DNA of 64,000 bases from Astropecten irregularis (lineage: Eukaryota; Echinodermata; Asteroidea; Paxillosida; Astropectinidae), in NCBI GenBank assembly GCA_963971285.1, contig OZ020248.1:11904001-11968000 (forward strand). Reading direction: 5' to 3'. The notes below the pieces were generated by a model. It did not search any database. It saw only the letters and a program-made list of their open reading frames with translations, and had not been told where the DNA came from. Every line of letters starts with the position of its first letter. The first letter of the stretch is position 1. Both the position numbers and the translations under genes were made by a program. Below, in pieces: positions 1-64,000 of the stretch.

Positions 1-218
1 CCTTCAATACTGAGCCGATCAAGTTGAAAATTGCACAAAATGTAGCCCCAGATGTTCCCTACAGGAAAGAAGCCTAGTTGTTAAATTTCCAAGGCATTTC
101 CATGGCCGAAAGTTCAAGTATAGCACGACTTGTTCCATGTGAAATCAACACGGTTGCCGTCAAAACACTGCGAAAGAACTGTTTGACTAACATTTTTGTG
201 CTAGAGTTGCAAATAACT
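1..218 (+). repeat. Reference monomer m1 of the 9-mer (218 bp)
   Basis: Class A at the two-state site, in the form AAGCCTAGTTGTTAAAT. It is preceded by GGAAAG and followed by GGCATTTCCATGGCCGAAAG. It carries TTCCATGTG at the third pentamer site, CACGGTTGCC, and the hairpin loop GCGAAAGAA. Copies lie at 1970, 3939 and 5908, with close relatives near 11373, 22977, 24950 and 30204. Base 31 (GAAAATTGC) differs from the other copies, which read GAAAACTGC. Confidence 0.9.
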
Positions 219-288
219 CCTTGAATACTGAGCCGATCAAGCTGAAAACTGCACAAAATGTAGCCCCAGATGTTCCCTACAGGATAGT

Positions 289-304
289 AGCCTAGTTGTT
301 ACAT
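289..304 (+). other. Two-state 16 bp site, class A example
   Basis: AGCCTAGTTGTTACAT at the reference position. The alternative state (508-523) differs at four positions while the flanking CATTT is shared. Every monomer is one class or the other, or a visible hybrid. Minor forms are GTTGTTAAAT, GCATAGTTG, CCTTGTTG, CCTCGTTG and GTTGTTATAT. Confidence 0.85.
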
Positions 305-332
305 TTCCAAGGCATTTTCATGGCCGAAAGTT

Positions 333-358
333 CAAGTATAGCACGACTTGTACCAAGT
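333..358. repeat. Alternating pentamer triplet CAAGT-8-ACTTG-3-CAAGT
   Basis: CAAGT (333-337), its reverse complement ACTTG (346-350), and CAAGT again (354-358). The first two are near-invariant in all monomers. The third is one of CAAGT, CAGGT or CATGT and is a main diagnostic of monomer type. The geometry gives two overlapping dyads, with spacers of eight and three bases. Confidence 0.6.
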
Positions 359-376
359 GAAACCAACCCAGTAGCC

Positions 377-405
377 GTCAAAACACTGATAAAGAACTGT
401 TTGAC
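377..405. repeat. Inverted repeat GTCAAA...TTTGAC with variable loop
   Basis: Perfect 6 bp arms (377-382 and 400-405), extendable to 8 bp with one bulged A (GTCAAAACA against TGTTTGAC). The loop varies between monomer types: GCGAAAGAA, ATAAAGAA, AAAAAGAA, AAAAATAA, TAAAATAA, ATGAAGAA and the longer TATATAAAATAA. The arms are almost invariant; exceptions include TTTGATTAAC (8506), GTCAGAACAC (41968, 60798), GTTAGAC (56010, 57755) and GCTTGAC (62794). The element sits directly before the T5 run. Confidence 0.6.
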
Positions 406-421
406 TAACATTTTTGTGCTA

Positions 422-437
422 GAGTTGAAAATAACTC
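422..437. repeat. Boundary dyad GAGTT-6-AACTC
   Basis: The inverted repeat spans the chosen monomer boundary. It is kept in the types GCAAATAACTCC, GGAATTAACTCC, GAAAATAACTCC and GCCAATAACTCC. It is broken in GCAAATTACTCC and in GCAAACAAATCC. Confidence 0.5.
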
Positions 438-655
438 CTTTAATACTGAGCCGATCAAGCTAAAAACTGCACAAAATGTAGCCCCACATGTTCCTATACA
501 GGAAAATAGCGTATTCGTCACATTTACAAGGCATTTTCATGGCCGAAAGTTCAAGTATAGCACGACTTGTATCAGGTGAAAACAACACAGTAGCCGTCAA
601 AACACTGAAAAAGAACTGTTTGACAAACATTTTTGTGCTAGAGTTGGAATTAACT
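437..655 (+). repeat. Reference monomer m3 of the 9-mer (219 bp)
   Basis: Class B (AGCGTATTCGTCACAT, followed by TTACAAGG). It starts CCTTTAATACTG, has AGCTAAAAAC, and has one extra base in CATGTTCCTATACAGG. The third pentamer is CAGGT, the next variant is ACACAGTAGCC, and the loop is AAAAAGAA followed by TTTGACAAAC. It is the most widely redeployed monomer of the window: related copies occur near 2406, 4375, 6344, 17721, 26261, 27137, 30640, 31516, 33923, 37424, 39840, 46211 and 49056. Confidence 0.9.
508..523 (+). other. Two-state 16 bp site, class B example
   Basis: AGCGTATTCGTCACAT. Compared with class A it adds two CpG dinucleotides and a TTCG. Minor forms are AACGTATTCG, GCATATTCG, GTATGCGTCAC (4450), GTATTCGTTACAT (12328, 16050, 19115) and GTATTCTTCACAT (24367, 28526). 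Confidence 0.85.
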
Positions 656-724
656 CCTTCAATACTGAGCCGATCAAGCTGAAAACTGCACAAAATGTAG
701 CCCCAGATGTTCCCTACAGGAAAA

Positions 725-775
725 TAGCCTAGTTGTTACATTTCCAAGGCATTTACATGGCCAAAAGTTCAAGTA
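725..775 (+). promoter_or_regulatory. Pol III-like split internal promoter (A box + B box resemblance)
   Basis: TAGCCTAGTTG at 725-735 fits the type 2 A-box consensus TRGYNNARNNG at all 11 positions. GTTCAAGTA at 767-775 fits the B-box core GWTCRANNC at 8 of 9 positions. Their starts are 42 bp apart, close to the spacing in a tRNA gene. The A-box-like element is the class A form of the two-state site, so it recurs in m2, m4, m6, m8 and m9; m1 and class B monomers break it. The segment does not fold as a tRNA (no T-stem). Function is inferred; only the motif match is seen. Confidence 0.35.
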
Positions 776-847
776 AAGCACGACTTGTTCCAAGTGAAAT
801 CAACCCAGTAGCCGTCAAAACACTGTAAAATAACTGTTTGACTAACA

Positions 848-852
848 TTTTT
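848..852 (+). terminator. T5 run downstream of the Pol III-like boxes
   Basis: ACATTTTTGTGC occurs once in almost every monomer, about 75 bases after the B-box-like motif. If the boxes were active, a transcript of roughly 135-140 nt would end here. In m2-, m8- and m9-like monomers an earlier T4 in GGCATTTTCATGG lies between the boxes; m4 (TTTACATGG) and m6 (TTTATATGG) lack it. A few monomers alter the T5 run, for example ACATGTTTGTG (11781, 25361) and ACATTGTTGTG (27546, 31925). Confidence 0.3.
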
Positions 853-875
853 GTGCTATAGAGTTGCAAATTACT

Positions 876-1093
876 CCTTCAATACTGAGCCGATCAAGCT
901 GAAAACTGCACAAAATGTAGCCCAAGATGTTCCCTTCAGGAAAATAGCGTATTCGTCACATTTCCATGGCATTTTCACGGCCAAAATTTCAAGTATAGCA
1001 CGACTTGTTCCATGTGAATTCAACCCGGTTGCCGTCAAAACACTGCGAAAGGACTGTTTGACTAACATTTTTGTGCTAGAGTTGCAAATAACT
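876..1093 (+). repeat. Reference monomer m5 of the 9-mer (218 bp)
   Basis: Class B (AGCGTATTCGTCACAT, then TTCCATGG). It has CCCAAGATG, TTTTCACGGCCAAAATTTC, CATGTGAATTC and CCCGGTTGCC, with loop GCGAAAGGA. Copies 1 and 2 of the HOR read CCCTTCAGG (near 931 and 2900), whereas copies 3 and 4 read CCCTACAGG. Confidence 0.9.
1023..1039 (-). promoter_or_regulatory. Degenerate CENP-B-box-like sequence (CGGTT-type monomers)
   Basis: Read on the minus strand this is TTTGACGGCAACCGGGT. Against the CENP-B box core NTTCGNNNNANNCGGGN it matches TT, the central A and all of CGGG (seven of nine fixed positions) but has GA where CG is required. Monomers of the CCCAGTAGCC, ACACAGTAGCC and AACAAAGTAGCC types lose the CGGG block. 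Because TTCG is a core contact, binding by CENP-B is doubtful. Confidence 0.25.
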
Positions 1094-1311
1094 CCTTCAA
1101 TACTGAGCCGATCAAGTTGAAAACTGCACAAAATGTAGCCCCAGATGTTCCCTACAGGATAGTAGCCTAGTTGTTACATTTCCAAGGCATTTATATGGCC
1201 AAAAGTTCAAGTAAAGCACGACTTGTTCCAAGTGAAATCAACCCAGTAGCCGTCAAAACACTGAAAAAGAACTGTTTGACAAACATTTTTGTGCTAGAGT
1301 TGGAATTAACT
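1094..1311 (+). repeat. Reference monomer m6 of the 9-mer (218 bp)
   Basis: Class A (TAGTAGCCTAGTTGTTAC). It has GGCATTTATATGGCCAAAAG, TAAAGCACG, TTCCAAGTG, CCCAGTAGCC and loop AAAAAGAA, then GACAAAC and GGAATTAACTCC across its right boundary. In the fourth HOR copy (7001-7218) the left half is replaced by m1-type sequence; see the findings. Confidence 0.9.
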
Positions 1312-1533
1312 CCTTCAATACTGAGCCGATCAAGCTGAAAACTGCACAAAATGTAGCCCCAGATGTTCCCTATAGAAAAAGAGCGTATTCGTCACATTTC
1401 CAAGCCATTTTCATAGCCGAAAGTTCAAGTATAGCACGACTTGTACCAAGTGAAATCAACCCGGTTGCCGTCAAAACACTGTATATAAAATAACTGTTTG
1501 ACTAACATTTTTGTGCTAGAGTTGCAAATAACT
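1312..1533 (+). repeat. Reference monomer m7 of the 9-mer (222 bp)
   Basis: Class B, preceded by CCCTATAGAAAAAGAGCG and followed by CCAAGCCATTTTCATAGCCG. It has TACCAAGTG and CCCGGTTGCC, and the hairpin loop is lengthened by four bases to give TGTATATAAAATAAC (TATATAAAA at 1482-1490). Relatives with the same +4 loop lie near 3281, 5250, 7219, 12685, 14875, 16407, 17940, 19472, 21662, 23635, 53860, 58224 and 59549. Confidence 0.9.
1482..1490 (+). promoter_or_regulatory. TATA-like element TATATAAAA in m7-type monomers
   Basis: A four-base expansion of the hairpin loop (TGTAAAATAAC to TGTATATAAAATAAC) creates a sequence fitting TATA-box consensus. It recurs in all m7-type monomers, for example at 3451-3459, 5420-5428 and 7389-7397. 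Whether it drives anything is unknown; AT-rich loops produce such matches easily. Confidence 0.2.
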
Positions 1534-1751
1534 CCTTCAATACTGAGCCGATAAAGTTGAAAACTGCACAAAATGTAACCCCAGATGTTCCATACAGGAT
1601 AGTAGCCTAGTTGTTACATTTCCAAGGCATTTTCATGGCCAAAAGTTCAAGTATAGCACGACTTGTACCAAGTGAAACCAACACAGTAGCCGTCAAAACA
1701 CTGATAAAGAATTGTTTGACTAACATTTTTGTGCTAGAGTTGCAAACAAAT
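1534..1751 (+). repeat. Reference monomer m8 of the 9-mer (218 bp)
   Basis: Class A. It is recognised by CCGATAAAGTTG, ATGTAACCCC and TTCCATACAGG in its left third, then TTTTCATGGCCAAAAG, TACCAAGTG, ACACAGTAGCC and loop ATAAAGAATTG. It ends with GCAAACAAATCC, which removes the boundary inverted repeat. Confidence 0.9.
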
Positions 1752-1969
1752 CCTTCAATACTGAGCCGATCAAGCTAAAAACTGCACAAAATGTAGCCCC
1801 AGATGTTCCCTACAGGATAGTAGCCTAGTTGTTACATTTCCAAGGCATTTTCATGGCCGAAAGTTCAAGTATAGCACGACTTGTATCAGGTGAAATCAAC
1901 CCGGTTGCCGTCAAAACACTGAAAAATAACTGTTTGACTAACATTTTTGTGCTAGAGTTGCAAATAACT
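1752..1969 (+). repeat. Reference monomer m9 of the 9-mer (218 bp)
   Basis: Class A. It has AGCTAAAAAC, TTTTCATGGCCGAAAG, TATCAGGTG, CCCGGTTGCC and loop AAAAATAA. In the fourth HOR copy (7659-7876) the sequence changes at about 7790 to TACCAAGTGAAAACAACC with loop ATGAAGAATTG. That change marks the right limit of the 9-mer block. Confidence 0.9.
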
Positions 1970-4900
1970 CCTTCAATACTGAGCCGATCAAGTTGAAAAC
2001 TGCACAAAATGTAGCCCCAGATGTTCCCTACAGGAAAGAAGCCTAGTTGTTAAATTTCCAAGGCATTTCCATGGCCGAAAGTTCAAGTATAGCACGACTT
2101 GTTCCATGTGAAATCAACACGGTTACCGTCAAAACACTGCGAAAGAACTGTTTGACTAACATTTTTGTGCTAGAGTTGCAAATAACTCCTTGAATACTGA
2201 GCCGATCAAGCTGAAAACTGCACAAAATGTAGCCCCAGATGTTCCCTACAGGATAGTAGCCTAGTTGTTACATTTCCAAGGCATTTTCATGGCCGAAAGT
2301 TCAAGTATAGCACGACTTGTACCAAGTGAAACCAACCCAGTAGCCGTCAAAACACTGATAAAGAACTGTTTGACTAACATTTTTGTGCTAGAGTTGAAAA
2401 TAACTCCTTTAATACTGAGCCGATCAAGCTAAAAACTGCACAAAATGTAGCCCCACATGTTCCTATACAGGAAAATAGCGTATTCGTCACATTTACAAGG
2501 CATTTTCATGGCCGAAAGTTCAAGTATAGCACGACTTGTATCAGGTGAAAACAACACAGTAGCCGTCAAAACACTGAAAAAGAACTGTTTGACAAACATT
2601 TTTGTGCTAGAGTTGGAATTAACTCCTTCAATACTGAGCCGATCAAGCTGAAAACTGCACAAAATGTAGCCCCAGATGTTCCCTACAGGAAAATAGCCTA
2701 GTTGTTACATTTCCAAGGCATTTACATGGCCAAAAGTTCAAGTAAAGCACGACTTGTTCCAAGTGAAATCAACCCAGTAGCCGTCAAAACACTGTAAAAT
2801 AACTGTTTGACTAACATTTTTGTGCTATAGAGTTGCAAATTACTCCTTCAATACTGAGCCGATCAAGCTGAAAACTGCACAAAATGTAGCCCAAGATGTT
2901 CCCTTCAGGAAAATAGCGTATTCGTCACATTTCCATGGCATTTTCACGGCCAAAATTTCAAGTATAGCACGACTTGTTCCATGTGAATTCAACCCGGTTG
3001 CCGTCAAAACACTGCGAAAGGACTGTTTGACTAACATTTTTGTGCTAGAGTTGCAAATAACTCCTTCAATACTGAGCCGATCAAGTTGAAAACTGCACAA
3101 AATGTAGCCCCAGATGTTCCCTACAGGATAGTAGCCTAGTTGTTACATTTCCAAGGCATTTATATGGCCAAAAGTTCAAGTAAAGCACGACTTGTTCCAA
3201 GTGAAATCAACCCAGTAGCCGTCAAAACACTGAAAAAGAACTGTTTGACAAACATTTTTGTGCTAGAGTTGGAATTAACTCCTTCAATACTGAGCCGATC
3301 AAGCTGAAAACTGCACAAAATGTAGCCCCAGATGTTCCCTATAGAAAAAGAGCGTATTCGTCACATTTCCAAGCCATTTTCATAGCCGAAAGTTCAAGTA
3401 TAGCACGACTTGTACCAAGTGAAATCAACCCGGTTGCCGTCAAAACACTGTATATAAAATAACTGTTTGACTAACATTTTTGTGCTAGAGTTGCAAATAA
3501 CTCCTTCAATACTGAGCCGATAAAGTTGAAAACTGCACAAATTGTAACCCCAGATGTTCCATACAGGATAGTAGCCTAGTTGTTACATTTCCAAGGCATT
3601 TTCATGGCCAAAAGTTCAAGTATAGCACGACTTGTACCAAGTGAAACCAACACAGTAGCCGTCAAAACACTGATAAAGAATTGTTTGACTAACATTTTTG
3701 TGCTAGAGTTGCAAACAAATCCTTCAATACTGAGCCGATCAAGCTAAAAACTGCACAAAATGTAGCCCCAGATGTTCCCTACAGGATAGTAGCCTAGTTG
3801 TTACATTTCCAAGGCATTTTCATGGCCGAAAGTTCAAGTATAGCACGACTTGTATCAGGTGAAATCAACCCGGTTGCCGTCAAAACACTGAAAAATAACT
3901 GTTTGACTAACATTTTTGTGCTAGAGTTGCAAATAACTCCTTCAATACTGAGCCGATCAAGTTGAAAACTGCACAAAATGTAGCCCCAGATGTTCCCTAC
4001 AGGAAAGAAGCCTAGTTGTTAAATTTCCAAGGCATTTCCATGGCCGAAAGTTCAAGTATAGCACGACTTGTTCCATGTGAAATCAACACGGTTGCCGTCA
4101 AAACACTGCGAAAGAACTGTTTGACTAACATTTTTGTGCTAGAGTTGCAAATAACTCCTTGAATACTGAGCCGATCAAGCTGAAAACTGCACAAAATGTA
4201 GCCCCAGATGTTCCCTACAGGATAGTAGCCTAGTTGTTACATTTCCAAGGCATTTTCATGGCCGAAAGTTCAAGTATAGCACGACTTGTACCAAGTGAAA
4301 CCAACCCAGTAGCCGTCAAAACACTGATAAAGAACTGTTTGACTAACATTTTTGTGCTAGAGTTGAAAATAACTCCTTTAATACTGAGCCGATCAAGCTA
4401 AAAACTGCACAAAATGTAGCCCCACATGTTCCTATACAGGAAAATAGCGTATGCGTCACATTTACAAGGCATTTTCATGGCCGAAAGTTCAAGTATAGCA
4501 CGACTTGTATCAGGTGAAAACAACACAGTAGCCGTCAAAACACTGAAAAAGAACTGTTTGACAAACATTTTTGTGCTAGAGTTGGAATTAACTCCTTCAA
4601 TACTGAGCCGATCAAGCTGAAAACTGCCCAAAATGTAGCCCCAGATGTTCCCTACAGGAAAATAGCCTAGTTGTTACATTTCCAAGGCATTTACATGGCC
4701 AAAAGTTCAAGTAAAGCACGACTTGTTCCAAGTGAAATCAACCCAGTAGCCGTCAAAACACTGTAAAATAACTGTTTGACTAACATTTTTGTGCTATAGA
4801 GTTGCAAATTACTCCTTCAATACTGAGCCGATCAAGCTGAAAACTGCACAAAATGTAGCCCAAGATGTTCCCTACAGGAAAATAGCGTATTCGTCACATT

Positions 4901-7810
4901 TCCATGACATTTTCACGGCCAAAATTTCAAGTATAGCACGACTTGTTCCATGTGAATTCAACCCGGTTGCCGTCAAAACACTGCGAAAGAACTGTTTGAC
5001 TAACATTTTTGTGCTAGAGTTGCAAATAACTCCTTCAATACTGAGCCGATCAAGTTGAAAACTGCACAAAATGTAGCCCCAGATGTTCCCTACAGGATAG
5101 TAGCCTAGTTGTTACATTTCCAAGGCATTTATATGGCCAAAAGTTCAAGTAAAGCACGACTTGTTCCAAGTGAAATCAACCCAGTAGCCGTCAAAACACT
5201 GAAAAAGAACTGTTTGACAAACATTTTTGTGCTAGAGTTGGAATTAACTCCTTCAATACTGAGCCGATCAAGCTGAAAACTGCACAAAATGTAGCCCCAG
5301 ATGTTCCCTATAGAAAAAGAGCGTATTCGTCACATTTCCAAGCCATTTTCATAGCCGAAAGTTCAAGTATAGCACGACTTGTACCAAGTGAAATCAACCC
5401 GGTTGCCGTCAAAACACTGTATATAAAATAACTGTTTGACTAACATTTTTGTGCTAGAGTTGCAAATAACTCCTTCAATACTGAGCCGATAAAGTTGAAA
5501 ACTGCACAAAATGTAACCCCAGATGTTCCATACAGGATAGTAGCCTAGTTGTTACATTTCCAAGGCATTTTCATGGCCAAAAGTTCAAGTATAGCACGAC
5601 TTGTACCAAGTGAAACCAACACAGTAGCCGTCAAAACACTGATAAAGAATTGTTTGACTAACATTTTTGTGCTAGAGTTGCAAACAAATCCTTCAATACT
5701 GAGCCGATCAAGCTAAAAACTGCACAAAATGTAGCCCCAGATGTTCCCTACAGGATAGTAGCCTAGTTGTTACATTTCCAAGGCATTTTCATGGCCGAAA
5801 GTTCAAGTATAGCACGACTTGTATCAGGTGAAATCAACCCGGTTGCCGTCAAAACACTGAAAAATAACTGTTTGACTAACATTTTTGTGCTAGAGTTGCA
5901 AATAACTCCTTCAATACTGAGCCGATCAAGTTGAAAACTGCACAAAATGTAGCCCCAGATGTTCCCTACAGGAAAGAAGCCTAGTTGTTAAATTTCCAAG
6001 GCATTTCCATGGCCGAAAGTTCAAGTATAGCACGACTTGTTCCATGTGAAATCAACACGGTTGCCGTCAAAACACTGCGAAAGAACTGTTTGACTAACAT
6101 TTTTGTGCTAGAGTTGCAAATAACTCCTTGAATACTGAGCCGATCAAGCTGAAAACTGCACAAAATGTAGCCCCAGATGTTCCCTACAGGATAGTAGCCT
6201 AGTTGTTACATTTCCAAGGCATTTTCATGGCCGAAAGTTCAAGTATAGCACGACTTGTACCAAGTGAAACCAACCCAGTAGCCGTCAAAACACTGATAAA
6301 GAACTGTTTGACTAACATTTTTGTGCTAGAGTTGAAAATAACTCCTTTAATACTGAGCCGATCAAGCTTAAAACTGCACAAAATGTAGCCCCACATGTTC
6401 CTATACAGGAAAATAGCGTATTCGTCACATTTACAAGGCATTTTCATGGCCGAAAGTTCAAGTATAGCACGACTTGTATCAGGTGAAAACAACACAGTAG
6501 CCGTCAAAACACTGAAAAAGAACTGTTTGACAAACATTTTTGTGCTAGAGTTGGAATTAACTCCTTCAATACTGAGCCGATCAAGCTGAAAACTGCACAA
6601 AATGTAGCCCCAGATGTTCCGTACAGGAAAATAGCCTAGTTGTTACATTTCCAAGGCATTTACATGGCCAAAAGTTCAAGTAAAGCACGACTTGTTCCAA
6701 GTGAAATCAACCCAGTAGCCGTCAAAACACTGTAAAATAACTGTTTGACTAACATTTTTGTGCTATAGAGTTGCAAATTACTCCTTCAATACTGAGCCGA
6801 TCAAGCTGAAAACTGCACAAAATGTAGCCCAAGATGTTCCCTACAGGAAAATGGCGTATTCGTCACATTTCCATGGCATTTTCACGGCCAAAATTTCAAG
6901 TATAGCACGACTTGTTCCATGTGAATTCAACCCGGTTGCCGTCAAAACACTGCGAAAGAACTGTTTGACTAACATTTTTGTGCTAGAGTTGCAAATAACT
7001 CCTTCAATACTGAGCCGATCAAGTTGAAAACTGCACAAAATGTAGCCCCAGATGTTCCCTACAGGAAAGAAGCCTAGTTGTTAAATTTCCAAGGCATTTC
7101 CATGGCCGAAAGTTCAAGTAAAGCACGACTTGTTCCAAGTGAAATCAACCCAGTAGCCGTCAAAACACTGAAAAAGAACTGTTTGACAAACATTTTTGTG
7201 CTAGAGTTGGAATTAACTCCTTCAATACTGAGCCGATCAAGCTGAAAACAGCACAAAATGTAGCCCCAGATGTTCCCTATAGAAAAAGAGCGTATTCGTC
7301 ACATTTCCAAGCCATTTTCATAGCCGAAAGTTCAAGTATAGCACGACTTGTACCAAGTGAAATCAACCCGGATGCCGTCAAAACACTGTATATAAAATAA
7401 CTGTTTGACTAACATTTTTGTGCTAGAGTTGCAAATAACTCCTTCAATACTGAGCCGATAAAGTTGAAAACTGCACAAAATGTAACCCCAGATGTTCCAT
7501 ACAGGATAGTAGCCTAGTTGTTACATTTCCAAGGCATTTTCATGGCCAAAAGTTCAAGTATAGCACGACTTGTACCAAGTGAAACCAACACAGTAGCCGT
7601 CAAAACACTGATAAAGAATTGTTTGACTAACATTTTTGTGCTAGAGTTGCAAACAAATCCTTCAATACTGAGCCGATCAAGCTAAAAACTGCACAAAATG
7701 TAGCCCCAGATGTTCCCTACAGGATAGTAGCCTAGTTGTTACATTTCCAAGGCATTTTCATGGCCGAAAGTTCAAGTATAGCACGACTTGTACCAAGTGA
7801 AAACAACCAA

Positions 7811-10800
7811 GTAGCCGTCAAAACACTGATGAAGAATTGTTTGACTAACATTTTTGTGCTAGAGTTGCAAATAACTCCTTCAACATTGAGCCGATCAAGC
7901 TGAAAACGGCACAAAATGTAGCCCCAGATGTTCCCTACAGGAAAATAGCCTAGTTGTTACATTTCCAAGGCATTTACATGGCCAAAAGTTCAAGTAAAGC
8001 ACGACTTGTTCCAAGTGAAATCAACAAAGTAGCCGTCAAAACACTGTAAAATAACTGTTTGACTAACATTTTTGTGCTATAGAGTTGCAAATTACTCCTT
8101 CAATACTGAGCCGATCAAGCTGAAAACTGCCCAAAATGTAGCCCCAGATGTTCCCTAGAGGAAAATAGCATATTCGTCACATTTCCATGGCATTTTCACG
8201 GCCAAAAGTTCAAGTATAGCACGACTTGTATCAGGTGAAATCAACCCGGTTGCCGTCAAAACACTGAAAAATAACTGTTTGACTAACATTTTTGTGCTAG
8301 AGTTGCAAATAACTCCTTCAATACTGAGCCGATCAAGCTGAAAACTGCACAAAATGTAGCCCCAGATGTTCCCTACAGGATAGTAGCCTAGTTGTTACAT
8401 TTCCAAGGCATTTATATGGCCAAAAGTTCAAGTATAGCACGACTTGTTCCATGTGAAATCAACCCGGTTGCCGTCAAAACACGGCGAAAGAACTGTTTGA
8501 TTAACATTTTTGTGCTAGAGTTGCCAATAACTCCTTGAATACTGAGCCGATCAAGCTGAAAAATACACAAAATGTAGCCCCAGATGTTCCCTACAGGAAA
8601 ATAACGTATTCGTCACATTTCCATGGCATTTTCACGGCCAAAAATTCAAGTATAGCACGACTTGTTCCATGTGAAATCAACCCGGTTGCCGTCAAAACAC
8701 TGCGAAAGAACTGTTTGACTAACATTTTTGTGCTAGAGTTGCAAATAACTCCTTCAATACTGAGCCGATCAAGCTGAAAACTGCACAAAATGTAGCCCCA
8801 GATGTTCCCTACAGGATAGTAGCATAGTTGTTACATTTCCAAGGCATTTATATGGCCAAAAGGTCAAGTAAAGCACGACTTGTTCCAAGTGAAATCAACC
8901 CAGTAGCCGTCAAAACACTGATGAAGAATTGTTTGACTAACATTTTTGTGCTAGAGTTGCAAATAACTCCTACAACATTGAGCCGATCAAGCTGAAAACG
9001 GCACAAAATGTAGCCCCAGATGTTCCCTACAGGAAAATAGCCTAGTTGTTACATTTCCAAGGCATTTACATGGCCAAAAGTTCAAGTAAAGCACGACTTG
9101 TTCCAAGTGAAATCAACAAAGTAGCCGTCAAAACACTGTAAAATAACTGTTTGACTAACATTTTTGTGCTATAGAGTTGCAAATTACTCCTTCAATACTG
9201 AGCCGATCAAGCTGAAAACTGCACAAAATGTAGCCCCAGATGTTCTCTAGAGGAAAATAGCATATTCGTCACATTTCCATGGCATTTTCACGGCCAAAAG
9301 TTCAAGTATAGCACGACTTGTATCAGGTGAAATCAACCCGGTTGCCGTCAAAACACTGAAAAATAACTGTTTGACTAACATTTTTGTGCTAGAGTTGCAA
9401 ATAACTCCTTCAATACTGAGCCGATCAAGCTGAAAACTGCACAAAATGTAGCCCCAGATGTTCCCTACAGGATAGTAGCCTAGTTGTTACATTTCCAAGG
9501 CATTTATATGGCCAAAAGTTCAAGTATAGCACGACTTGTTCCATGTGAAATCAACCCGGTTGCCGTCAAAACACGGCGAAAGAACTGTTTGATTAACATT
9601 TTTGTGCTAGAGTTGCCAATAACTCCTTGAATACTGAGCCGATCAAGCTGAAAAATACACAAAATGTAGCCCCAGATGTTCCCTACAGGAAAATAACGTA
9701 TTCGTCACATTTCCATGGCATTTTCACGGCCAAAAATTCAAGTATAGCACGACTTGTTCCATGTGAAATCAACCCGGTTGCCGTCAAAACACTGCGAAAG
9801 AACTGTTTGACTAACATTTTTGTGCTAGAGTTGCAAATAACTCCTTCAATACTGAGCCGATCAAGCTGAAAACTGCACAAAATGTAGCCCCAGATGTTCA
9901 CTACAGGATAGTAGCATAGTTGTTACATTTCCAAGGCATTTATATGGCCAAAAGGTCAAGTAAAGCACGACTTGTTCCAAGTGAAATCAACCCAGTAGCC
10001 GTCAAAACACTGATGAAGAATTGTTTGACTAACATTTTTGTGCTAGAGTTGCAAATAACTCCTTCAACATTGAGCCGATCAAGCTGAAAACTGCACAAAA
10101 TGTAGCCCCAGATGTTCCCTACAGGAAAATAGCCTAGTTGTTACATTTCCAAGGCATTTACATGGCCAAAAGTTCAAGTAAAGCACGACTTGTTCCAAGT
10201 GAAATCAACAAAGTAGCCGTCAAAACACTGTAAAATAACTGTTTGACTAACATTTTTGTGCTATAGAGTTGCAAATTACTCCTTCAATACTGAGCCGATC
10301 AAGCTGAAAACTGCACAAAATGTAGCCCCAGATGTTCCCTAGAGGAAAATAGCATATTCGTCACATTTCCATGGCATTTTCACGGCCAAAAGTTCAAGTA
10401 TAGCACGACTTGTATCAGGTGAAATCAACCCGGTTGCCGTCAAAACACTGAAAAATAACTGTTTGACTAACATTTTTGTGCTAGAGTTGCAAATAACTCC
10501 TTCAATACTGAGCCGATCAAGCTGAAAACTGCACAAAATGTAGCCCCAGATGTTCCCTACAGGATAGTAGCCTAGTTGTTACATTTCCAAGGCATTTATA
10601 TGGCCAAAAGTTCAAGTATAGCACGACTTGTTCCATGTGAAATCAACCCGGTTGCCGTCAAAACACGGCGAAAGAACTGTTTGATTAACATTTTTGTGCT
10701 AGAGTTGCCAATAACTCCTTGAATACTGAGCCGATCAAGCTGAAAAATACACAAAATGTAGCCCCAGATGTTCCCTACAGGAAAATAACGTATTCGTCAC

Positions 10801-17600: not shown

Positions 17601-17720
17601 TATATGGCCAAAAGTTCAAGTATAGCACGACTTGTTCCATGTGAAATCAACCCGGTTGCCGTCAAAACACGGCGAAAGAACTGTTTGATTAACATTTTTG
17701 TGCTAGAGTTGCAAATAACT

Positions 17721-55290: not shown

Positions 55291-58200
55291 AAGTAAAGCA
55301 CGACTTGTTCCATGTGAAATCAACCCGGTTGCCGTCAAAACACTGCGAAAGAACTGTTTGATTAACATTTTTGTGCAAGAGTTGCCAATAACTCCTTCAA
55401 TACTGAGCCGATCAAGCTGAAAACTGCACAAAATGTAGCCCCAGATGTTCCCTACAGGATAGTAGCCTAGTTGTTACATTTCCAAGGCATTTTCATGGCC
55501 GAAAGTTCAAGTATAGCACGACTTGTACCAAGTGAAACCAACCCAGTAGCCGTCAAAACACTGATAAAGAACTGTTTGACTAACATTTTTGTGCTAGAGT
55601 TGAAAATAACTCCTTTAATACTGAGCCGATCAAGCTAAAAACTGCACAAAATGTAGCCCCACATGTTCCCTACAGGAAAATAACGTATTCGTCACATTTC
55701 CATGGCATTTTCACGGCCAAAAATTCAAGTATAGCACGACTTGTTCCATGTGAAATCATCCCGGTTGCCGTCAAAACACTGCGAAAGAACTGTTTGACTA
55801 ACATTTTTGTGCTAGAGTTGCAAATAACTCCTTCAATACTGAGCCGATCAAGCTGAAAACTGCACAAAATGTAGCCCCAGATGGTCCCTACAGGATAGTA
55901 GCCTAGTTGTTACATTTCCAAGGCATTTATATGGCCAAAAGTTCAAGTAAAGCACGACTTGTTCCAAGTGAAATCAACCCAGTAGCCGTCAAAACACTGT
56001 AAAATAACTGTTAGACTAACATTTTTGAGTTATAGAGTTGCAAATTACTCCTTCAATACTGAGCCGATCAAGCTGAAAACTGCACAAAATGTAGCCCCAG
56101 ATGTTCCCTACAGGATAGTAGCCTAGTTGTTACATTTCCAAGGCATTTTCATGGCCGAAAGTTCAAGTATAGCACGACTTGTACCAAGTGAAACCAACCC
56201 AGTAGCCGTCAAAACACTGATAAAGAACTGTTTGACTAACATTTTTGTGCTAGAGTTGAAAATAACTCCTTTAATACTGAGCCGATCAAGCTAAAAACTG
56301 CACAAAATGTAGCCCCACATGTTCCCTACAGGAAAATAGCGTATTCGTCACATTTACAAGGCATTTTCATGGCCGAAAGTTCAAGTATAGCACGACTTGT
56401 ATCAGGTGAAAACAACACAGTAGCCGTCAAAACACTGAAAAAGAACTGTTTGACAAACATTTTTGTGCTAGAGTTGGAATTAACTCCTTCAATACTGAGC
56501 CGATCAAGCTGAAAACTGCACAAAATGTAGCCCCAGATGTTCCCTATAGAAAAATAGCGTATTCGTCACATTTCTATGGCATTTTCACGGCCAAAAGTTC
56601 AAGTATAGCACGACTTGTATCAGGTGAAATCAACCCGGTTGCCGTCAAAACACTGAAAAATAACTGTTTGACTAACATTTTTGTGCTAGAGTTGCAAATA
56701 ACTCTTCAATACTGAGCCGATCAAGTTGAAAACTGCACAAAATGTAGCCCCAGATGTTCCCTACAGGAAAGAAGCCTAGTTGTTAAATTTCCAAGGCATT
56801 TCCATGGCCGAAAGTTCAAGTATAGCACGACTTGTTCCATGTGAAATCAACACGGTTGCCGTCAAAACACTGCGAAAGAACTGTTTGACTAACATTTTTG
56901 TGCTAGAGTTGCAAATAACTCCTTCAATACTGAGCCGATCAAGCTGAAAACTGCACAAAATGTAGCCCCAGATGTTCCCTACAGGATAGTAGCCTAGTTG
57001 TTACATTTCCAAGGCATTTTCATGGCCGAAAGTTCAAGTAAAGCACGACTTGTTCCATGTGAAATCAACCCGGTTGCCGTCAAAACACTGCGAAAGAACT
57101 GTTTGATTAACATTTTTGTGCAAGAGTTGCCAATAACTCCTTCAATACTGAGCCGATCAAGCTGAAAACTGCACAAAATGTAGCCCCAGATGTTCCCTAC
57201 AGGATAGTAGCCTAGTTGTTACATTTCCAAGGCATTTTCATGGCCGAAAGTTCAAGTATAGCACGACTTGTACCAAGTGAAACCAACCCAGTAGCCGTCA
57301 AAACACTGATAAAGAACTGTTTGACTAACATTTTTGTGCTAGAGTTGAAAATAACTCCTTTAATACTGAGCCGATCAAGCTAAAAACTGCACAAAATGTA
57401 GCCCCACATGTTCCCTACAGGAAAATAACGTATTCGTCACATTTCCATGGCATTTTCACGGCCAAAAATTCAAGTATAGCACGACTTGTTCCATGTGAAA
57501 TCATCCCGGTTGCCGTCAAAACACTGCGAAAGAACTGTTTGACTAACATTTTTGTGCTAGAGTTGCAAATAACTCCTTCAATACTGAGCCGATCAAGCTG
57601 AAAACTGCACAAAATGTAGCCCCAGATGGTCCCTACAGGATAGTAGCCTAGTTGTTACATTTCCAAGGCATTTATATGGCCAAAAGTTCAAGTAAAGCAC
57701 GACTTGTTCCAAGTGAAATCAACCCAGTAGCCGTCAAAACACTGTAAAATAACTGTTAGACTAACATTTTTGAGTTATAGAGTTGCAAATTACTCCTTCA
57801 ATACTGAGCCGATCAAGCTGAAAACTGCACAAAATGTAGCCCCAGATGTTCCCTACAGGATAGTAGCCTAGTTGTTACATTTCCAAGGCATTTTCATGGC
57901 CGAAAGTTCAAGTATAGCACGACTTGTACCAAGTGAAACCAACCCAGTAGCCGTCAAAACACTGATAAAGAACTGTTTGACTAACATTTTTGTGCTAGAG
58001 TTGAAAATAACTCCTTTAATACTTAGCCGATCAAGCTAAAAACTGCACAAAATGTAGCCCCACATGTTCCCTACAGGAAAATAGCGTATTCGTCACATTT
58101 ACAAGGCATTTTCATGGCCGAAAGTTCAAGTATAGCACGACTTGTATCAGGTGAAAACAACACAGTAGCCGTCAAAACACTGAAAAAGAACTGTTTGACA

Positions 58201-58304
58201 AACATTTTTGTGCTAGAGTTGGAATTAACTCCTTCAATACTGAGCCGATCAAGCTGAAAACTGCACAAAATGTAGCCCCAGATGTTCCCTATAGAAAAAG
58301 AGCG
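55290..58304 (+). repeat. 8-monomer period, 1745 bp
   Basis: Copy 1 is 55290-57034 and partial copy 2 is 57035-58304, with a constant offset of 1745 bp. Shared marks are GTGCAAGAGTTGCC (55373 and 57118), AAATCATCCCGG (55753 and 57498), CAGATGGTCCC (55879 and 57624) and TGTTAGACTAAC with TTTGAGTTATAG (56010 and 57755). Copy 1 contains a one-base deletion, ATAACTCTTCAATAC, at about 56698. Copy 2 has TACTTAGCCG near 58020. Confidence 0.92.
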
Positions 58305-59330
58305 TATTCGTCACATTTCCAAGCCATTTTCATAGCCGAAAGTTCAAGTATAGCACGACTTGTACCAAGTGAAATCAACCCGGTTGCCGTCAAAACACTG
58401 TATATAAAATAACTGTTTGACTAACATTTTTGTGCTAGAGTTGCAAATAACTCCTTCAATACTGAGCCGATAAAGTTGAAAACTGCACAAAATGTAACCC
58501 CAGATGTTCCATACAGGATAGTAGCCTAGTTGTTACATTTCCAAGGCATTTTCATGGCCGAAAGTTCAAGTATAGCACGACTTGTACCAAGTGAAACCAA
58601 CACAGTAGCCGTCAAAACACTGATAAAGAATTGTTTGACTAACATTTTTGTGCTAGAGTTGCAAACAAATCCTTCAATACTGAGCCGATCAAGCTAAAAA
58701 CTGCACAAAATGTAGCCCCAGATGTTCCCTACAGGATAGTAGCCTAGTTTTTACATTTCCAAGGCATTTTCATGGCCGAAAGTTCAAGTATAGCACGACT
58801 TGTATCAGGTGAAATCAACCCGGTTGCCGTCAAAACACTGACAAATAACTGTTTGACTAACATTTTTGTGCTAGAGTTGCAAATAACTCCTTCAATACTG
58901 AGCCGATCAAGCTGAAAACTGCACAAAATGTAGCCCCAGATGTTCCCTACAGGATAGTAGCCTAGTTGTTACATTTCCAAGGCATTTATATGGCCAAAAG
59001 TTCAAGTAAAGCACGACTTGTTCCAAGTGAAATCAACAAAGTAGCCGTCAAAACACTGTAAAATAACTGTTTGACTAACATTTTTGTGCTATAGAGTTGC
59101 AAATTACTCCTTCAATACTGAGCCGATCAAGCTGAAAACTGCACAAAATGTAGCCCCAGATGTTCCCTATAGGAAAATAGCGTATTCGTCACATTTCTAT
59201 GGCATTTTCACGGCCAAAAGTTCAAGTATAGCACGACTTGTACCAAGTGAAATCAACCCGGTTGCCGTCAAAACACTGTATATAAAATAACTGTTTGAGT
59301 AACATTTTTGTGCTAGAGTTGCAAATAACT
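58305..59330 (+). repeat. m7-m8-m9-like segment right of the 8-mer
   Basis: Monomers follow the order m7, m8, m9 of the first HOR (compare 1370-1969), with private changes CCTAGTTTTTACATT near 58744 and CTGACAAATAAC near 58839. They are followed by a class A monomer with AACAAAGTAGCC and, from 59109, a class B monomer with CACATTTCTATGG and the +4 TATATAAAA loop, a combination not seen elsewhere. This is the last stretch with clear HOR order. Confidence 0.82.
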
Positions 59331-60133
59331 CCTTAAATACTGAGCCGATCAAGTTGAAAACTGCACAAAATGTAGCCCCAGATGTTCCCTACAGGAAAGA
59401 AGCCTAGTTGTTAAATTTCCAAGGCATTTCCATGGCCGAAAGTTCAAGTATAGCACGACTTGTTCCATGTGAAATTAACCCGGTTGCCGTCAAAACACTG
59501 AAAAAGAACTGTTTGACAAACATGTTTGTGCTAGAGTTGGAATTAACTCCTTCAATACTGAGCCGATCAAGCTGAAAACTGCACAAAATGTAGCAGCAGA
59601 TGTTCCCTACAGAAAAAGAGCGTATTCGTCACATTTCCAAGCAATTTTCATAGCCAAAAGTTCAAGTATAGCACGACTTGTACCAAGTGAAATCAACCCG
59701 GTTGCCGTCAAAACACTGTATATAAAATAACTGTTTGACTAACATTTTTGTGCTAGAGTTGCAAATAACTCCTTCAATACTGAGCCGATCAAGTTGAAAA
59801 CTGCACAAAATGTAGCCCCAGATGTTCCCTACAGGATAGTAGCCTCGTTGTTAAATTTCCAAGGCATTTCCATGGCCGAAAGTTCAAGTATAGCACGACT
59901 TGTTCCATGTGAAATCAACCCGGTTGCCGTCAAAACACTGAAAAAGAACTGTTTGACAAACATTTTTGTGCTAGAGTTGCAAATTACTCCTTCAATACTG
60001 AGCCGATCAAGCTGAAAAATACACAAAATGTAGCCCCAGATGTTCCCTACAGGATAGTTGCCTAGTTGTTACATTTCCAAGGCATTTTCATGGCCGAAAG
60101 TTCAAGTATAGCACGACTTGTACCAAGTAAACT

Positions 60134-60147
60134 CAACCCGCGGGTTG
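60134..60147. other. 14 bp perfect palindrome CAACCCGCGGGTTG
   Basis: Most CGGTT-type monomers read CAACCCGGTTG here. A three-base insertion has produced a perfect 14 bp palindrome with a central SacII-type CCGCGG hexamer. It is flanked by the variant TACCAAGTAAACTC. A second copy is at 61227-61240 in the same flanking sequence, 1093 bp (five monomers) away. Confidence 0.9.
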
Positions 60148-60209
60148 CCGTCAAAACACTGTAAAATAACTGTTTGACTAACATTTTTGTGCTAGAGTTG
60201 CAAATAACT

Positions 60210-60421
60210 CCTTCAATACTGAGCCGATCAAGCTGAAAAACTGCACAAAATGTAGCCCCAGATGTTCCCTACAGGAAAGTAGCCTAGTTGTTACATTTCC
60301 AAAGCATTTTCATGGCCAAAAGTTCAAGTATAGCACGACTAGTGAAATCAACCCGGTTGCCGTCAAAACACTGCAAAAGAACTGTTTGACTAACATTTTT
60401 GTGCTAGAGTTGCAAATAACT
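60210..60421 (+). repeat. 212 bp monomer with 7 bp deletion
   Basis: The shortest monomer. At about 60340 GCACGACTTGTACCAAGTG is reduced to GCACGACTAGTG, a loss of seven bases that removes the second and third elements of the CAAGT/ACTTG/CAAGT triplet. It also has an extra A in CTGAAAAACTGC, GGAAAGTAGCC, and AAAGCATTTTCATGG. Adjacent repeated AGT/ACT bases may have favoured the deletion. Confidence 0.9.
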
Positions 60422-60857
60422 CCTTCAATACAGAGCCGATCAAGTTGAAAACTACACAAAATGTAGCCCCAGATGTTCCCCACAGGAAAAAAGCGTATTC
60501 GTCACATTTCCATGGCATTTGCACGGCCAAAAGTTTAAGTATAGCACGACTTGTATCCAGTGAAATCAACCCTGTTGCCGTCAAAACACTGTAAAATAAC
60601 TGTTTGACTAACATTTTTGTGCTAGAGTTGCAAATAACTCCTTCAATACTGAGCCGATCAAGTTGAAAACTACACAAAATGTAGCCCCACATGTTCCCTA
60701 CAGGAAAATAGCGTATTCGTCACATTTACAAGGCATTTTCATGGCCGAATGTTCAAGTATAGCACGACTTGTACCAAGTGAAACCAACACAGTAGCCGTC
60801 AGAACACTGATGAAGAACTGTTTGACTAACATTTTTGTGCTAGAGTTGCAAATAACT

Positions 60858-61081
60858 CCTTCAATACTGAGCTGATCAAGTTGAAAACTGCACAAAATGT
60901 AGCCCCAGATGTTCCCTACAGGAAAATAGCCTAGTTGTTACATTTCCAAGGCATTTACATGGCCAAAAGTTCAAGTAAAGCACGACTTGTTCCAAGTGAA
61001 ATCAACCCATGCAGTAGCCGTCAAAACACTGTAAAATAACTGTTTGACTAACATTTTTGTGCTACAGAGTTGCAAATTACT
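60858..61081 (+). repeat. 224 bp monomer with ATGC insertion
   Basis: m4-like class A monomer with a four-base insertion giving CAACCCATGCAGTAGCC (61009 onward) and GCTACAGAG in place of GCTATAGAG. Both marks recur together at 63491-63714. The inserted bases create ATGCA/TGCAT-like symmetry at the insertion point. Confidence 0.88.
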
Positions 61082-61226
61082 CCTTCAATACTGAGCCGAT
61101 CAAGCTGAAAACTGCACAAAATGTAGCCCCAGATGTTCCCTACAGGAAAATAGCGTATTCGTCACATTTCCATGGCATTTTCATGGCCGAAAGTTCAAGT
61201 ATAGCACGACTTGTACCAAGTAAACT

Positions 61227-61240
61227 CAACCCGCGGGTTG
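61227..61240. other. Second copy of the 14 bp palindrome
   Basis: It is identical to 60134-60147, with the same upstream variant AAGTAAACTC. The host monomer (61082-61302) is class B with GGCATTTTCATGGCCGAAAG, whereas the first palindrome lies in a class A monomer. The insertion has therefore moved between monomer backgrounds. Confidence 0.9.
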
Positions 61241-63490
61241 CCGTCAAAACACTGCGAAAGAACTGTTTGACAAACATTTTTGTGCTAGAGTTGGAAATAA
61301 CTCCTTCAATGCTGAGCCGATCAAGCTAAAAACTGCACAAAATGTAGCCACACATGTTCCCTACAGGAAAAAAGCGTATTCGTCACATTTCCAAGGCATT
61401 TACATGGACAAAAAATCAAGTAAAGCACGACTTGTTCCAAGTGAAATCAACAAAGTAGCCGTCAAAACACTGTAAAATAACTGTTTGACTAACATTTTTG
61501 TGCTATAGAGTTGCAAATTACTCCTTCAATACTGAGCCGATCAAGCTGAAAACTGCACAAAATGTAGCCCCAGATGTTCCCTACAGGAAAATAGCGTATT
61601 CGTCACATTTCCATGGCATTTTCACGGCCAAAATTTCAAGTATAGCACGACTTGTTCCATGTGAAATCAACCCGGTTGCCGTCAAAACAATGCGAAAGAA
61701 CTGTTTGACTAACATTTTTGTGCTAGAGTTGCAAATAACTCCTTCAATACTGAGCCGATCAAGCTGAAAAATACACAAAATGTAGCCCCAGATGTTCCCT
61801 ACAGGATAGTTGCCTAGTTGTTACATTTCCAAGGCATTTACATGGCCAAAAGTTCAAGTAAAGCACGACTTGTTCCAAGTGAAATCAACCAAGTAGCCGT
61901 CAAAACACTGTAAAATAACTGTTTGACTACTATTTTTGTGCTATAGAGTTGCAAATTACTCCTTCAATACTGAGCCGATCAAGCTGAAAACTGCACAAAA
62001 TGTAGCCCCAGATGTTCCCTATAGGAAAATAGCGTATTCGTCACATTTCTATGGCATTTTCACGGCCAACAGTTCAAGTATAGCACGACTTGTATCAGGT
62101 GAAATCAACCCGGTTGCCGTCAAAACACTGAAAAATAACTGTTTGACTTACATTTTTGTGCTAGAGTTGCAAATAACTCCTTCAATACTGAGCCGATCAA
62201 GCTGAAAACTGCACAAAATGTAGCCCCAGATGTTCCCTACAGGATAGTAGCCAAGTTGTTATATTTCCAAGGCATTTTCATGGCCAAAAGTTCAAGTATA
62301 GCACGACTTGTTCCATGTGAAATCAACCCGGTTGCCGTCAAAACACTGCGAAAGAACTGTTTGATTAACATTTTTGTGCAAGAGTTGCCAATAACTCCTT
62401 CAATACTGAGCCGATCAAGCTGAAAAATACACAAAATGTAGCCCCAGATGTTCCCTACAGGATAGTTGCCTAGTTGTTACATTTCCAAGGCATTTTTATG
62501 GCCAAACGTTCAAGTATAGCACGACTTGTTCCATGTGAAATCATCCCGGTTGCCGTCAAAACACTGAAAAATAACTGTTTGACTAACATTTTTGTGCTAG
62601 AGTTGCAAACAAATCCTTCAATACTGAGCCGATCAAGTTGAAAACTGCACAAAATGTAGCCCCAGATGTTCCCTACAGGATAGTAGCCTAGTTGTTACAT
62701 TTCCAAGGCATTTTCATGGCCGAAAGTTCAAGTATAGCACGACTTGTACCAAGTGAAAACAACCCAGTAGCCGTCAAAACACTGATAAAGAACTGCTTGA
62801 CTAACATTTTTGTGCTAGAGTTGCAAATAACTCCTTCAAAATTGAGTCGGTCAAGCTGAAAAACTGCACAAAATGTAGCCCCAGATGTTCCCTACAGGAT
62901 AATAGCCTAGTTGTTAAATTTCCAAGGCATTTTCATGGCCAAAAGTTCAAGTAAAGCACGACTTGTTCCAAGTGAAATCAACCCAGTAGCCGTCAAAACA
63001 CTGTAAAATAACTGTTTGACTAACATTTTTGTGCTATAGAGTTGCAAATTATTCCTTCAATACTGAGCCGATCAAGCTGAAAACTGCACAAAATGTAGCC
63101 CCAGATGTTCCCTACGGGAAAATAGCGTATTCGTCACATTTCCATGGCATTTTCACGGCCAAAAGTTCAAGTATAGCACAACTTGTATCAGGTGAAACCA
63201 ACACAGTAGCCGTCAAAACACTGAAAAAGAACTGTTTGACAAACATATTTGTGCTAGAGTTGGAATTAACTCCTTCAATACTGAGCCGATCAAGCTGAAA
63301 ACTGCACAAAATGTAGCCCCAGATGTTCCCTATAGAAAAAGAGCGTATTCGTCACATTTCCAAGCCATTTTTTATAGCCGAAAGTTCAAGTATAGCACGA
63401 CTTGTACCAAGTGAAACCAACCCAGTAGCCGTCAAAACACTGATAAAGAACTGTTTGACTAACATTTTTGTGCTAGAGTTGGAAATAACT

Positions 63491-63714
63491 CCTTCAATAC
63501 TGAGCCGATCAAGCTAAAAACTGCACAAAATGTAGCCCCAGATGTTCCCTACAGGAAAATAGCCTAGTTGTTACATTTCCAAGGCATTTACATGGCCAAA
63601 AGTTCAAGTAAAGCACGACTTGTTCCAAGTGAAATCAACCCATGCAGTAGCCGTCAAAACACTGTAAAATAACTGTTTGACTAACATTTTTGTGCTACAG
63701 AGTTGCAAATTACT
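63491..63714 (+). repeat. Second 224 bp monomer with ATGC insertion
   Basis: It carries the same ATGC insertion (63642 onward) and GCTACAGAG as 60858-61081, with an offset of 2633 bp or 12 monomers. The following monomers (61082 and 63715) are both class B with GGCATTTTCATGGCCGAAAG but differ further on, so the duplicated segment is short or has since been rearranged. Confidence 0.88.
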
Positions 63715-64000
63715 CCTTCAATACTGAGCCGATCAAGCTGAAAACTGCACAAAATGTAGCCCCAGATGTTCCCTACAGGAAAATAGCGTATTCGTCACAT
63801 TTCCATGGCATTTTCATGGCCGAAAGTTCAAGTATAGCACGACTTGTACCAAGTGAAACCAACCCAGTAGCTGTCAAAACACTGATAAAGAACTGTTTGA
63901 CTAACATTTTTGTGCTAGAGTTGCAAACAAATCCTTCAATACTGAGCTGATCAAGTTGAAAACTGCACAAAATGTAGCCCCAGATGTTCCCTACAGGAAA

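Follow-up and report, generated by a model that had tools for sequence, protein, structure and literature searches.

A patchwork of local higher-order periods in a 218-bp satellite array, as expected from local duplication and deletion

The window (the whole stretch of DNA analysed, positions 1..64000 of the forward strand, 64,000 nucleotides) lies entirely inside a satellite array on contig C11 of a 476-Mb animal genome, probably from an echinoderm, with a mitochondrial code of echinoderm-like type. The array is continuous over 115,767 bp (C11:11858420-11974186), with 45,581 bp preceding the window and 6,186 bp following it, and contains 530 anchors of an approximately 218-bp monomer, all on one strand, that is, a long head-to-tail run of a single monomer family. 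In the window, 293 anchors were found on a single strand in an unbroken array, and since the spacing of the monomer starts is 212–227 bp throughout, it carries no insertions. The array is bounded on both sides by other sequence, is flanked by a 147-bp satellite, of which several contigs carry abundant copies (a 37-base pattern, allowing at most three mismatches, gave 3,075 matches), and occupies the position at 43.6–44.0% of the contig, the start of which bears telomere repeats. For the identity matrix, intervals outside 200–235 bp were dropped, which kept 527 of the 529 on C11 and all of those in the pieces of C8 and C14. The general identity between C11 monomers is about 91% (91.2%). Among the 527 monomers, 193 different sequences occur, and 420 monomers are matched exactly by another one in the array, which bears out the claim of an earlier note on this DNA that the blocks draw on a common pool of monomer types. 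The literature search found no paper matching three sequence motifs of the 218-bp satellite and, among the matches listed, nothing on an echinoderm satellite with higher-order repeats (HORs).

Duplication blocks were located by self-comparison, in which exact 50-mers were chained along diagonals. Their copies are 99.2–100% identical, compared with about 91% between monomers generally; the block ends are resolved only to within the next variable position, and many go back to common events, so histograms of where they fall in the monomer are no guide to breakpoint hotspots. The blocks and related features are as follows (window coordinates, identity between copies in per cent).

-332..7792, forward strand: 9-monomer block, period 1969 bp, its first 332 bp preceding the window, 4.13 copies (3.94 if only the window is counted), 99.6%
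7810..11104, forward strand: 5-monomer block, period 1092 bp, 3.02 copies, 99.6%
11794..22805, forward strand: 17-monomer unit in three copies (3722, 3065 and 3722 bp), offsets 3722, 3065 and 6787
21148..25097, forward strand: 9-monomer block, period 1973 bp, 2.0 copies, 99.9%
23773..32342, forward strand: 19/20-monomer duplication, 4159/4379 bp, one copy pair, the second longer by one monomer
28998..34173, forward strand: 15-monomer block, period 3283 bp, 1.58 copies, 99.7%
32128..38543, forward strand: 16-monomer block, period 3501 bp, 1.83 copies, 99.9%
38518..39682, forward strand: interposed 1165-bp stretch in the 16-monomer block, 100% identical to 43347-44511, offset 4829
37211..40959, forward strand: 11-monomer block, period 2416 bp, 1.55 copies, 99.9%
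40872..44225, forward strand: 6-monomer block, period 1320 bp, 2.54 copies, 99.6%
43558..49993, forward strand: 13-monomer block, period 2845 bp, 2.26 copies, 99.9%
50149..53921, forward strand: 10-monomer block, period 2189 bp, 1.72 copies, 99.2%
55173..58299, forward strand: 8-monomer block, period 1745 bp, 1.79 copies, 99.4%
about 58,460..63,940 (approximate), forward strand: region nearly without recent copies, array monomers 475–499, one 25-monomer bin

The earlier note had listed ten different higher-order periods, each in about 1.7 to 4 copies. All ten were recovered where it had placed them, but the list omitted the 15- and 11-monomer periods, and two of its entries, 17/14 and 19/20, are not pairs of separate HORs if, as the alignments suggest, each is one set of units with a small indel. 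The three copies of the 17-monomer unit are followed by a partial extension to 22805. The middle copy is shorter by 657 bp, that is, by three monomers; the 3722 and 3065 offsets probably belong to one unit set with an indel, and those of 4159 and 4379 probably to a single duplication with a one-monomer difference. The copy range given holds for most blocks, although diagonal pieces go down to 1.46 (4159), 1.54 (4379) and 1.59 (3722). Instead of ten different HORs, the window is best described as carrying the overlapping footprints of about a dozen duplications, some of them a single duplication with an internal indel. The 16-monomer block has a third, partial copy at 39627-41724, beyond the interposed stretch of about five monomers. 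In the nearly copy-free region at about 58,460–63,940, only 4% of the 25 monomers have an identical copy and the mean best match is 97.2%.

At the monomer level, a block was defined as a run of at least four monomers that are 98% identical and span no less than half the lag. By this count the window contains 15 blocks with 12 distinct lags (the 15-mer and the 19/20-mer were missed, their runs being too broken), whereas shuffling the monomer order 200 times gave a mean of 0.8 blocks and a maximum of 4. In the whole C11 array, 30 blocks with 18 periods were found, with 1.86 copies per block and 80% of monomers having an identical copy; the largest single period, the 9-mer, covers 26% of the array, and the largest share of any period in the window is 18%. 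Offsets below 40 monomers deviate from whole monomers by a mean of 0.043 monomer (0.25 if random). Near-identical (at least 98%) adjacent monomers are almost absent, with 1 of 526 pairs on C11 and 0 of 292 in the window (mean of the shuffles 4.8%, minimum 1.4%). Mismatches per block range from 0 in 2,865 bp up to 25 in 6,156 bp, indicating that the duplication events were spread in time.

A relative array of the same family (about 80% identical, about 156 kb) is present on contig C8. The counts for it cover about 66 kb; the remaining 90 kb was taken as array from its two ends and scattered matches. Its examined parts contain 16 blocks with 9 periods in 141 monomers, 5 with 5 in 112, and 3 with 3 in 44. 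Here 5–11.6% of adjacent monomers are near-identical, periods of 2–3 monomers occur, and the offsets deviate from whole monomers by a mean of 0.017 and 0.031 monomer in two stretches. The patchwork is thus no peculiarity of the window alone. Among the matches listed, C11 and C8 were the only contigs with large arrays of the 218-bp family; diverged relatives may be missed there.

False local periods could also arise if haplotypes or copies were wrongly stitched together during assembly. The longest exact repeat within the C11 array is 8,727 bp, the copies of a 50-monomer duplication to the left of the window differ at only 2 of 9,192 bp, and the data are the assembly sequence alone, all of which would suit such an artefact. 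Ordinary long reads exceed 8.7 kb, so even the longest repeat falls within their length; in addition, the divergences vary from block to block instead of taking a single heterozygosity value, the array is bounded on both sides on a contig that starts with a telomere, and the same pattern appears in the examined parts of C8. An artefact is hence very improbable.

The proposal that the blocks represent a cascade of local segmental tandem duplications was examined by simulation. The tandem model comprised neutral duplication and deletion with a size parameter of 20 monomers (capped at 60), 300 events and 12 runs; settings were scanned by hand without a fit, and the model breakpoints fall only between monomers. 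It gave 15.3 periods (range 10–20), 29.5 blocks, 79% of monomers with an identical copy and 1.91 copies per block, compared with the observed 18, 30, 80% and 1.86, and so supports the cascade in the counts of periods, blocks, copies and re-use. The spacing of the copies supports it too: of the near-identical runs, the observed fraction separated by over 100 monomers is 0.28, which lies within the 0.05–0.34 of the tandem model at size 20, while the size-10 version misses it (0.00–0.25) and models of random copy-paste and conversion give 0.42–0.79. Most measures are thus reproduced by neutral adjacent duplication and deletion; the share of the largest period and the full tandem runs fall outside the best free setting. 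The 26% share of the 9-mer exceeds the 14–21% of the best free-register setting and is inside the range of settings weakly preferring near-identical registers (0.13–0.27 and 0.17–0.56). The frequency of near-identical neighbours, 0.002, is at the very bottom of the best setting's range (0.002–0.048, mean 0.027). With the strict rule, the share of full tandem runs (0.019) is below what the tandem model predicts (0.03–0.16 at size 20); allowing one hybrid junction monomer, a looser rule applied to the data only, raises it to 0.069. Single-monomer slippage was rejected, as it yielded at most one period and 11–36% near-identical neighbours against 0.2% observed, and a high-mutation-rate simulation (6 runs per setting) left too few identical monomers.

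Random copy-paste through reinsertion of circles, or conversion between distant monomers, could likewise make shared monomer types. Identical stretches do occur far apart in the C11 array, for example 2,015 bp at a distance of 17.5 kb, and on the strict full-tandem-run measure only, the observed 0.019 agrees better with these models (0.00–0.07). In these models 42–79% of the near-identical runs are separated by over 100 monomers, against 28% observed, and partial tandem runs average 0.3–3.5%, against 12%. As the main source of the pattern they were therefore rejected, and this explanation is very improbable; they may still make a minor contribution.

The array is probably a neutral, locally turning-over satellite, the patchwork of which stems from local multi-monomer duplications and deletions. 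The multiple periods, near-integer offsets, single orientation, locality, spread of divergence and recurrence of the pattern in the examined C8 parts are direct observations. Mechanistically, segments of about 4–50 monomers (about 1–11 kb on C11) would be repeatedly duplicated or deleted beside themselves, presumably when monomers only about 90% alike, lying out of register by an integral number of monomers, recombine or are used for repair. As the register would not be locked to one unit, each event would leave its own period in about two copies, and later events would overlap, trim and nest earlier ones, producing a patchwork of periods from one monomer pool. Such a pattern is expected when arrays grow and shrink through chance copying errors. 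The interposed stretch at 38518-39682, with its identical counterpart 4.8 kb away, cannot come from a single tandem event and counts against this explanation.

The array could instead belong to a centromere or pericentromere in which the HOR patchwork is selected or driven, a view favoured by its position on the contig and by the adjoining 147-bp satellite. Neutral turnover already suffices in simulation, and no exact match to the CENP-B-box core was found on either strand of the C11 array. The restriction of large 218-bp arrays to C11 and C8, among the matches listed, argues weakly in the same direction, and a centromeric origin of the pattern appears decidedly unlikely.

HORs in Arabidopsis CEN180 arrays are short, local and varied, and the C11 array resembles them in this respect. 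It differs in that near-identical neighbours are nearly absent (1/526), whereas the HiCAT paper (PMC10053651) describes single-monomer expansion in all Arabidopsis centromeres. Like human alpha-satellite HOR arrays, which have diverged monomers and multi-monomer units 99–100% alike, the C11 array has units far more alike than its monomers (99.2–100% vs 91.2%). Unlike them, it is not dominated by one unit (18 periods, no share above 26%), lacks the exact CENP-B-box core and measures 116 kb, not megabases. In the unequal-exchange model of Smith (1976), as described in PMC8997354, HORs arise from exchange and mutation in head-to-tail monomers through adjacent duplications at whole-monomer offsets; such offsets were found on C11 and in the two C8 stretches, but the C11 register has not settled on one unit over 116 kb despite monomers about 91% alike. 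Orangutan alpha satellite also forms a patchwork, in which several different HOR blocks adjoin one another within an array (PMC11062924); there 3–4 blocks are only 80–90% alike, while C11 has about 30 small overlapping blocks from one monomer pool. The window does lack a dominant unit, yet the oddity implied by the earlier note is weaker than suggested, because such patchworks are known in orangutan (PMC11062924) and the examined C8 parts are alike. The patchwork array is real and instructive, and its kind is already known in print. Assembled with both edges, the 116-kb array is small enough for event-by-event decoding, and the occurrence of the family as two arrays on separate contigs, each a patchwork in the parts examined, offers a clean way to test whether the HOR dominance seen in human centromeres is the default or a special outcome.

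The tandem steps might come from break-induced replication, in which stalled forks re-invade out of register, rather than from reciprocal unequal exchange between sister chromatids. This alternative is a sub-case of local duplication and deletion, not exclusive of it, and differs in the enzyme pathway; a model of this kind for nested HORs is set out in PMC8997354. The many-monomer events and the absence of near-identical neighbours among the 292 pairs of the window fit long-step re-invasion. A simulation without a minimum step (size 20, 150 events) also reaches a lag-1 identity of 0.002–0.019, so the deficit of such neighbours does not demand break-induced replication, and the near-identical neighbours on C8 indicate that single-monomer steps occur in the family. 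The sequence footprints of the two pathways are inseparable here, and we consider break-induced replication a serious candidate, somewhat less probable than its negation.

When recent pairs are excluded, the similarity between neighbours is lower than at any other of the 30 lags in each of three stretches, which lie on two chromosomes. After removal of pairs at least 97% identical, lag 1 is depleted (naive z −4.5, −1.7 and −1.9) and lag 5 slightly enriched (2.6, 2.2 and 3.1), the z values being uncorrected for the 30 lags of each stretch. The order of monomer classes is far from random. These features give hints only of an older hidden HOR; older shared duplications would equally produce a non-random class order. 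Together with the C11 duplications of about 4–50 monomers, almost none of one, the dissimilarity of neighbours is the basis for a further, unlikely reading, that exchange in the 218-bp family mostly ignores the HOR register and prefers long steps. If true, this would suggest that a long-step process such as break-induced replication is the usual way in which satellites turn over in this animal, the opposite of the register-locked growth of human arrays, with arrays of a size that can be traced through pedigrees. The near-identical neighbours (5–11.6%) and the 2–3-monomer periods of C8 speak against a strict lower limit of step size.

The window is filled from 1 to 64000 by a tandem repeat of ~218 bp (292 copies, 90% match in Tandem Repeats Finder), and an anchor search (20 bases, ≤4 substitutions) detected 293 + strand matches spaced by 212–227 bp without a gap. 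The window occupies C11:11904001–11968000; with flanks added to it, the array spanned C11:11858420 to 11974186 (115,767 bp), and its monomers had 91.2% mean pairwise identity. Contig C11, one of the 168 contigs of the 475.7 Mb genome, starts with CCCTAA repeats and contains a histone 3′ stem-loop, a feature that indicates an animal. All ten higher-order periods claimed by the earlier note were recovered at their places by chained 50-mer diagonals from pieces of 99.2–100% identity; the list itself was incomplete, as two local periods had been overlooked:

3283 bp, local period of 15 monomers
2416 bp, local period of 11 monomers

The 3722/3065 pair was interpreted as three copies of a 17-monomer unit, the middle one shorter by three monomers, because the offset of 6787 equals 3722 + 3065, while the 4159/4379 pair was read as a single duplication with a second copy one monomer longer. 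Counted at monomer level (blocks being near-identical runs of ≥4 monomers at 98% identity and at least half the lag), the window contained 15 blocks at 12 lags and the whole C11 array 30 blocks at 18 lags; shuffling the monomer order of the window 200 times gave a mean of 0.8 blocks and a maximum of 4. Left of the window, 50 monomers are involved in a larger duplication at an offset of 10,940 bp, which extends over 9,192 bp with 2 mismatches. The offsets deviated from whole monomers by only 0.043 on average, indicating that joining relies on homology of in-phase monomers. The blocks contained between 0 mismatches (in 2,865 bp) and 25 (in 6,156 bp), thus the duplication events were spread in time. 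In blocks 2189 (12 mismatches in 1,584) and 1745 (9 in 1,382), the mismatches were mostly bunched at one end.

The cascade of segmental tandem duplications proposed in the earlier note was supported by simulation, where 530 monomers ~91% alike underwent random adjacent duplication, deletion and point mutation (12 runs per setting). Most patchwork statistics were matched: with 300 events and a size parameter of 20 monomers, the simulation yielded 15.3 periods (18 in the array), 29.5 blocks (30), 1.91 copies per block (1.86) and identical copies for 79% of the monomers (80%). Two measures were off. The largest single-period share (26%) exceeded the 14–21% of this setting and fell inside settings mildly preferring near-identical registers. 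Full tandem runs under the strict rule amounted to 1.9%, below the 3–16% of the tandem model and resembling the copy-paste and conversion models (0–7%); permitting a hybrid monomer at the junction, a looser rule used for the array only, raised the array's value to 6.9%. Distances were compared in 10 runs per setting. Of the near-identical runs, 28% were separated by over 100 monomers in the array and 5–34% in the tandem model at size 20; at size 10 the range was 0–25%, which the array exceeds. Random-place insertion or overwriting of copies gave 42–79% and was rejected as the main source. Single-monomer changes alone were also rejected, as they produced at most one period and 11–36% near-identical neighbours versus 0.2% in the array. 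According to the model, no selection would be needed to explain the patchwork, which does not prove that selection is absent.

None of the 292 neighbouring pairs in the window was near-identical (shuffles: mean 4.8%, minimum 1.4%), and neighbours were the least alike among 30 lags in all three stretches compared (naive z −4.5, −1.7, −1.9). This deficit would follow from a preference for long steps; the plain tandem model also reached comparably low neighbour identity in some runs. On contig C8, 5–11.6% of neighbours were near-identical, thus a strict lower step limit does not hold for the 218-bp family. Among the matches listed (more diverged copies may exist), this family was located as follows:

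C8, about 23,638,944–23,795,402, minus strand, 218-bp family array
C14, 2.7-kb piece of the family
C25 and C21, few monomers
C11, near 12.30 Mb (locus L023), three matches at 77%

Mean identity was 79.5% between C11 and C8 and 76.1% between C11 and C14. The C8 sample (about 66 of ~156 kb) showed periods of 2 to 26 monomers and 24 blocks over three stretches (16 in 141 monomers, 5 in 112 and 3 in 44; the shuffle comparison refers to the C11 window only), including two units with 99.9% identity between copies, one of 18 monomers (1.96 copies) and one of 8 monomers (2.14 copies). As the same patchwork occurs in the sampled C8 parts, it looks like a property of the 218-bp family. A local assembly error could also generate such periods, but the C8 array, the bounded edges of the C11 array and the spread of block ages speak against it. 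In the consensus alignment of C11, C8 and C14, several blocks, for example GATGTTCCCTACAGGA and TTCAAGTATAGCA, were unchanged across the three subfamilies, and both sequence and length varied around monomer positions 145–200. Judged from the alignment, a protein-binding constraint is possible.

No exact match to the CENP-B-box core was found on either strand of the C11 array. According to PMC11062924, HORs in human arrays can extend over megabases; in orangutan arrays, three to four HOR blocks, 80–90% alike, form a patchwork. The C11 array differs from the former in having no single dominant unit, and is finer than the latter, with about 30 overlapping blocks from one monomer pool. As far as tested, it belongs to the broad class of unequal-exchange satellites; it is of a known type, and its own architecture is instructive and well resolved. 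PMC8997354 describes both reciprocal exchange and break-induced replication in satellites; the two leave the same footprint in this array.

The left neighbour of the 218-bp array is a 147-bp satellite (GC about 0.50), found in 5/5 loci sampled from 11.800–11.858 Mb (11.803–11.834 Mb outside the sample):

C11:11.800–11.858 Mb (loci L017, L018, L029, L030, L031:1–4241), 147-bp satellite, left flank
L036:6189–7760, degenerate 147-bp family, right flank, same orientation as the left, 78%, covering 1,277 bp of a 1.6-kb stretch

The equally oriented degenerate stretch on the right places the 218-bp array within or at the edge of a 147-bp array. A junction piece of about 180 bp on the left (L031:4242–4419) matched neither satellite on comparison, and may be a transposon remnant. 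A 37-base pattern of the 147-bp family (≤3 mismatches) had 3,075 genome matches, with C8, C11, C13, C14 and C18 among the matches listed. The minus strand of this satellite carries GGGTTCAAGACCC, which resembles a tRNA B box and suggests descent from a tRNA-derived SINE. The monomer has the length of the nucleosome core, 147 bp. At L030:7684–9949, inside the satellite, 52-bp forms and composite periods of 200/347/494 bp were observed, thus the 147-bp array has local higher-order structure, too.

COX1 matches were also found elsewhere in the assembly. A 500-base COX1 piece of the 16.3-kb mitochondrial contig was stop-free under codes 5, 9 and 13; its two AAA codons, at positions where animal COX1 has asparagine, encode this residue under code 9 only among the three. 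This reading indicates an echinoderm or a near relative. The partial match at C25:9951047–9952018, on a contig also bearing 218-bp monomers, contains 7 TGA codons and probably represents mitochondrial DNA copied into the nuclear genome. C131, where a bacterial-looking cytochrome c oxidase operon (C131:32162–33484, L053) includes a COX1 match without an internal stop, is probably a symbiont or contaminant contig.
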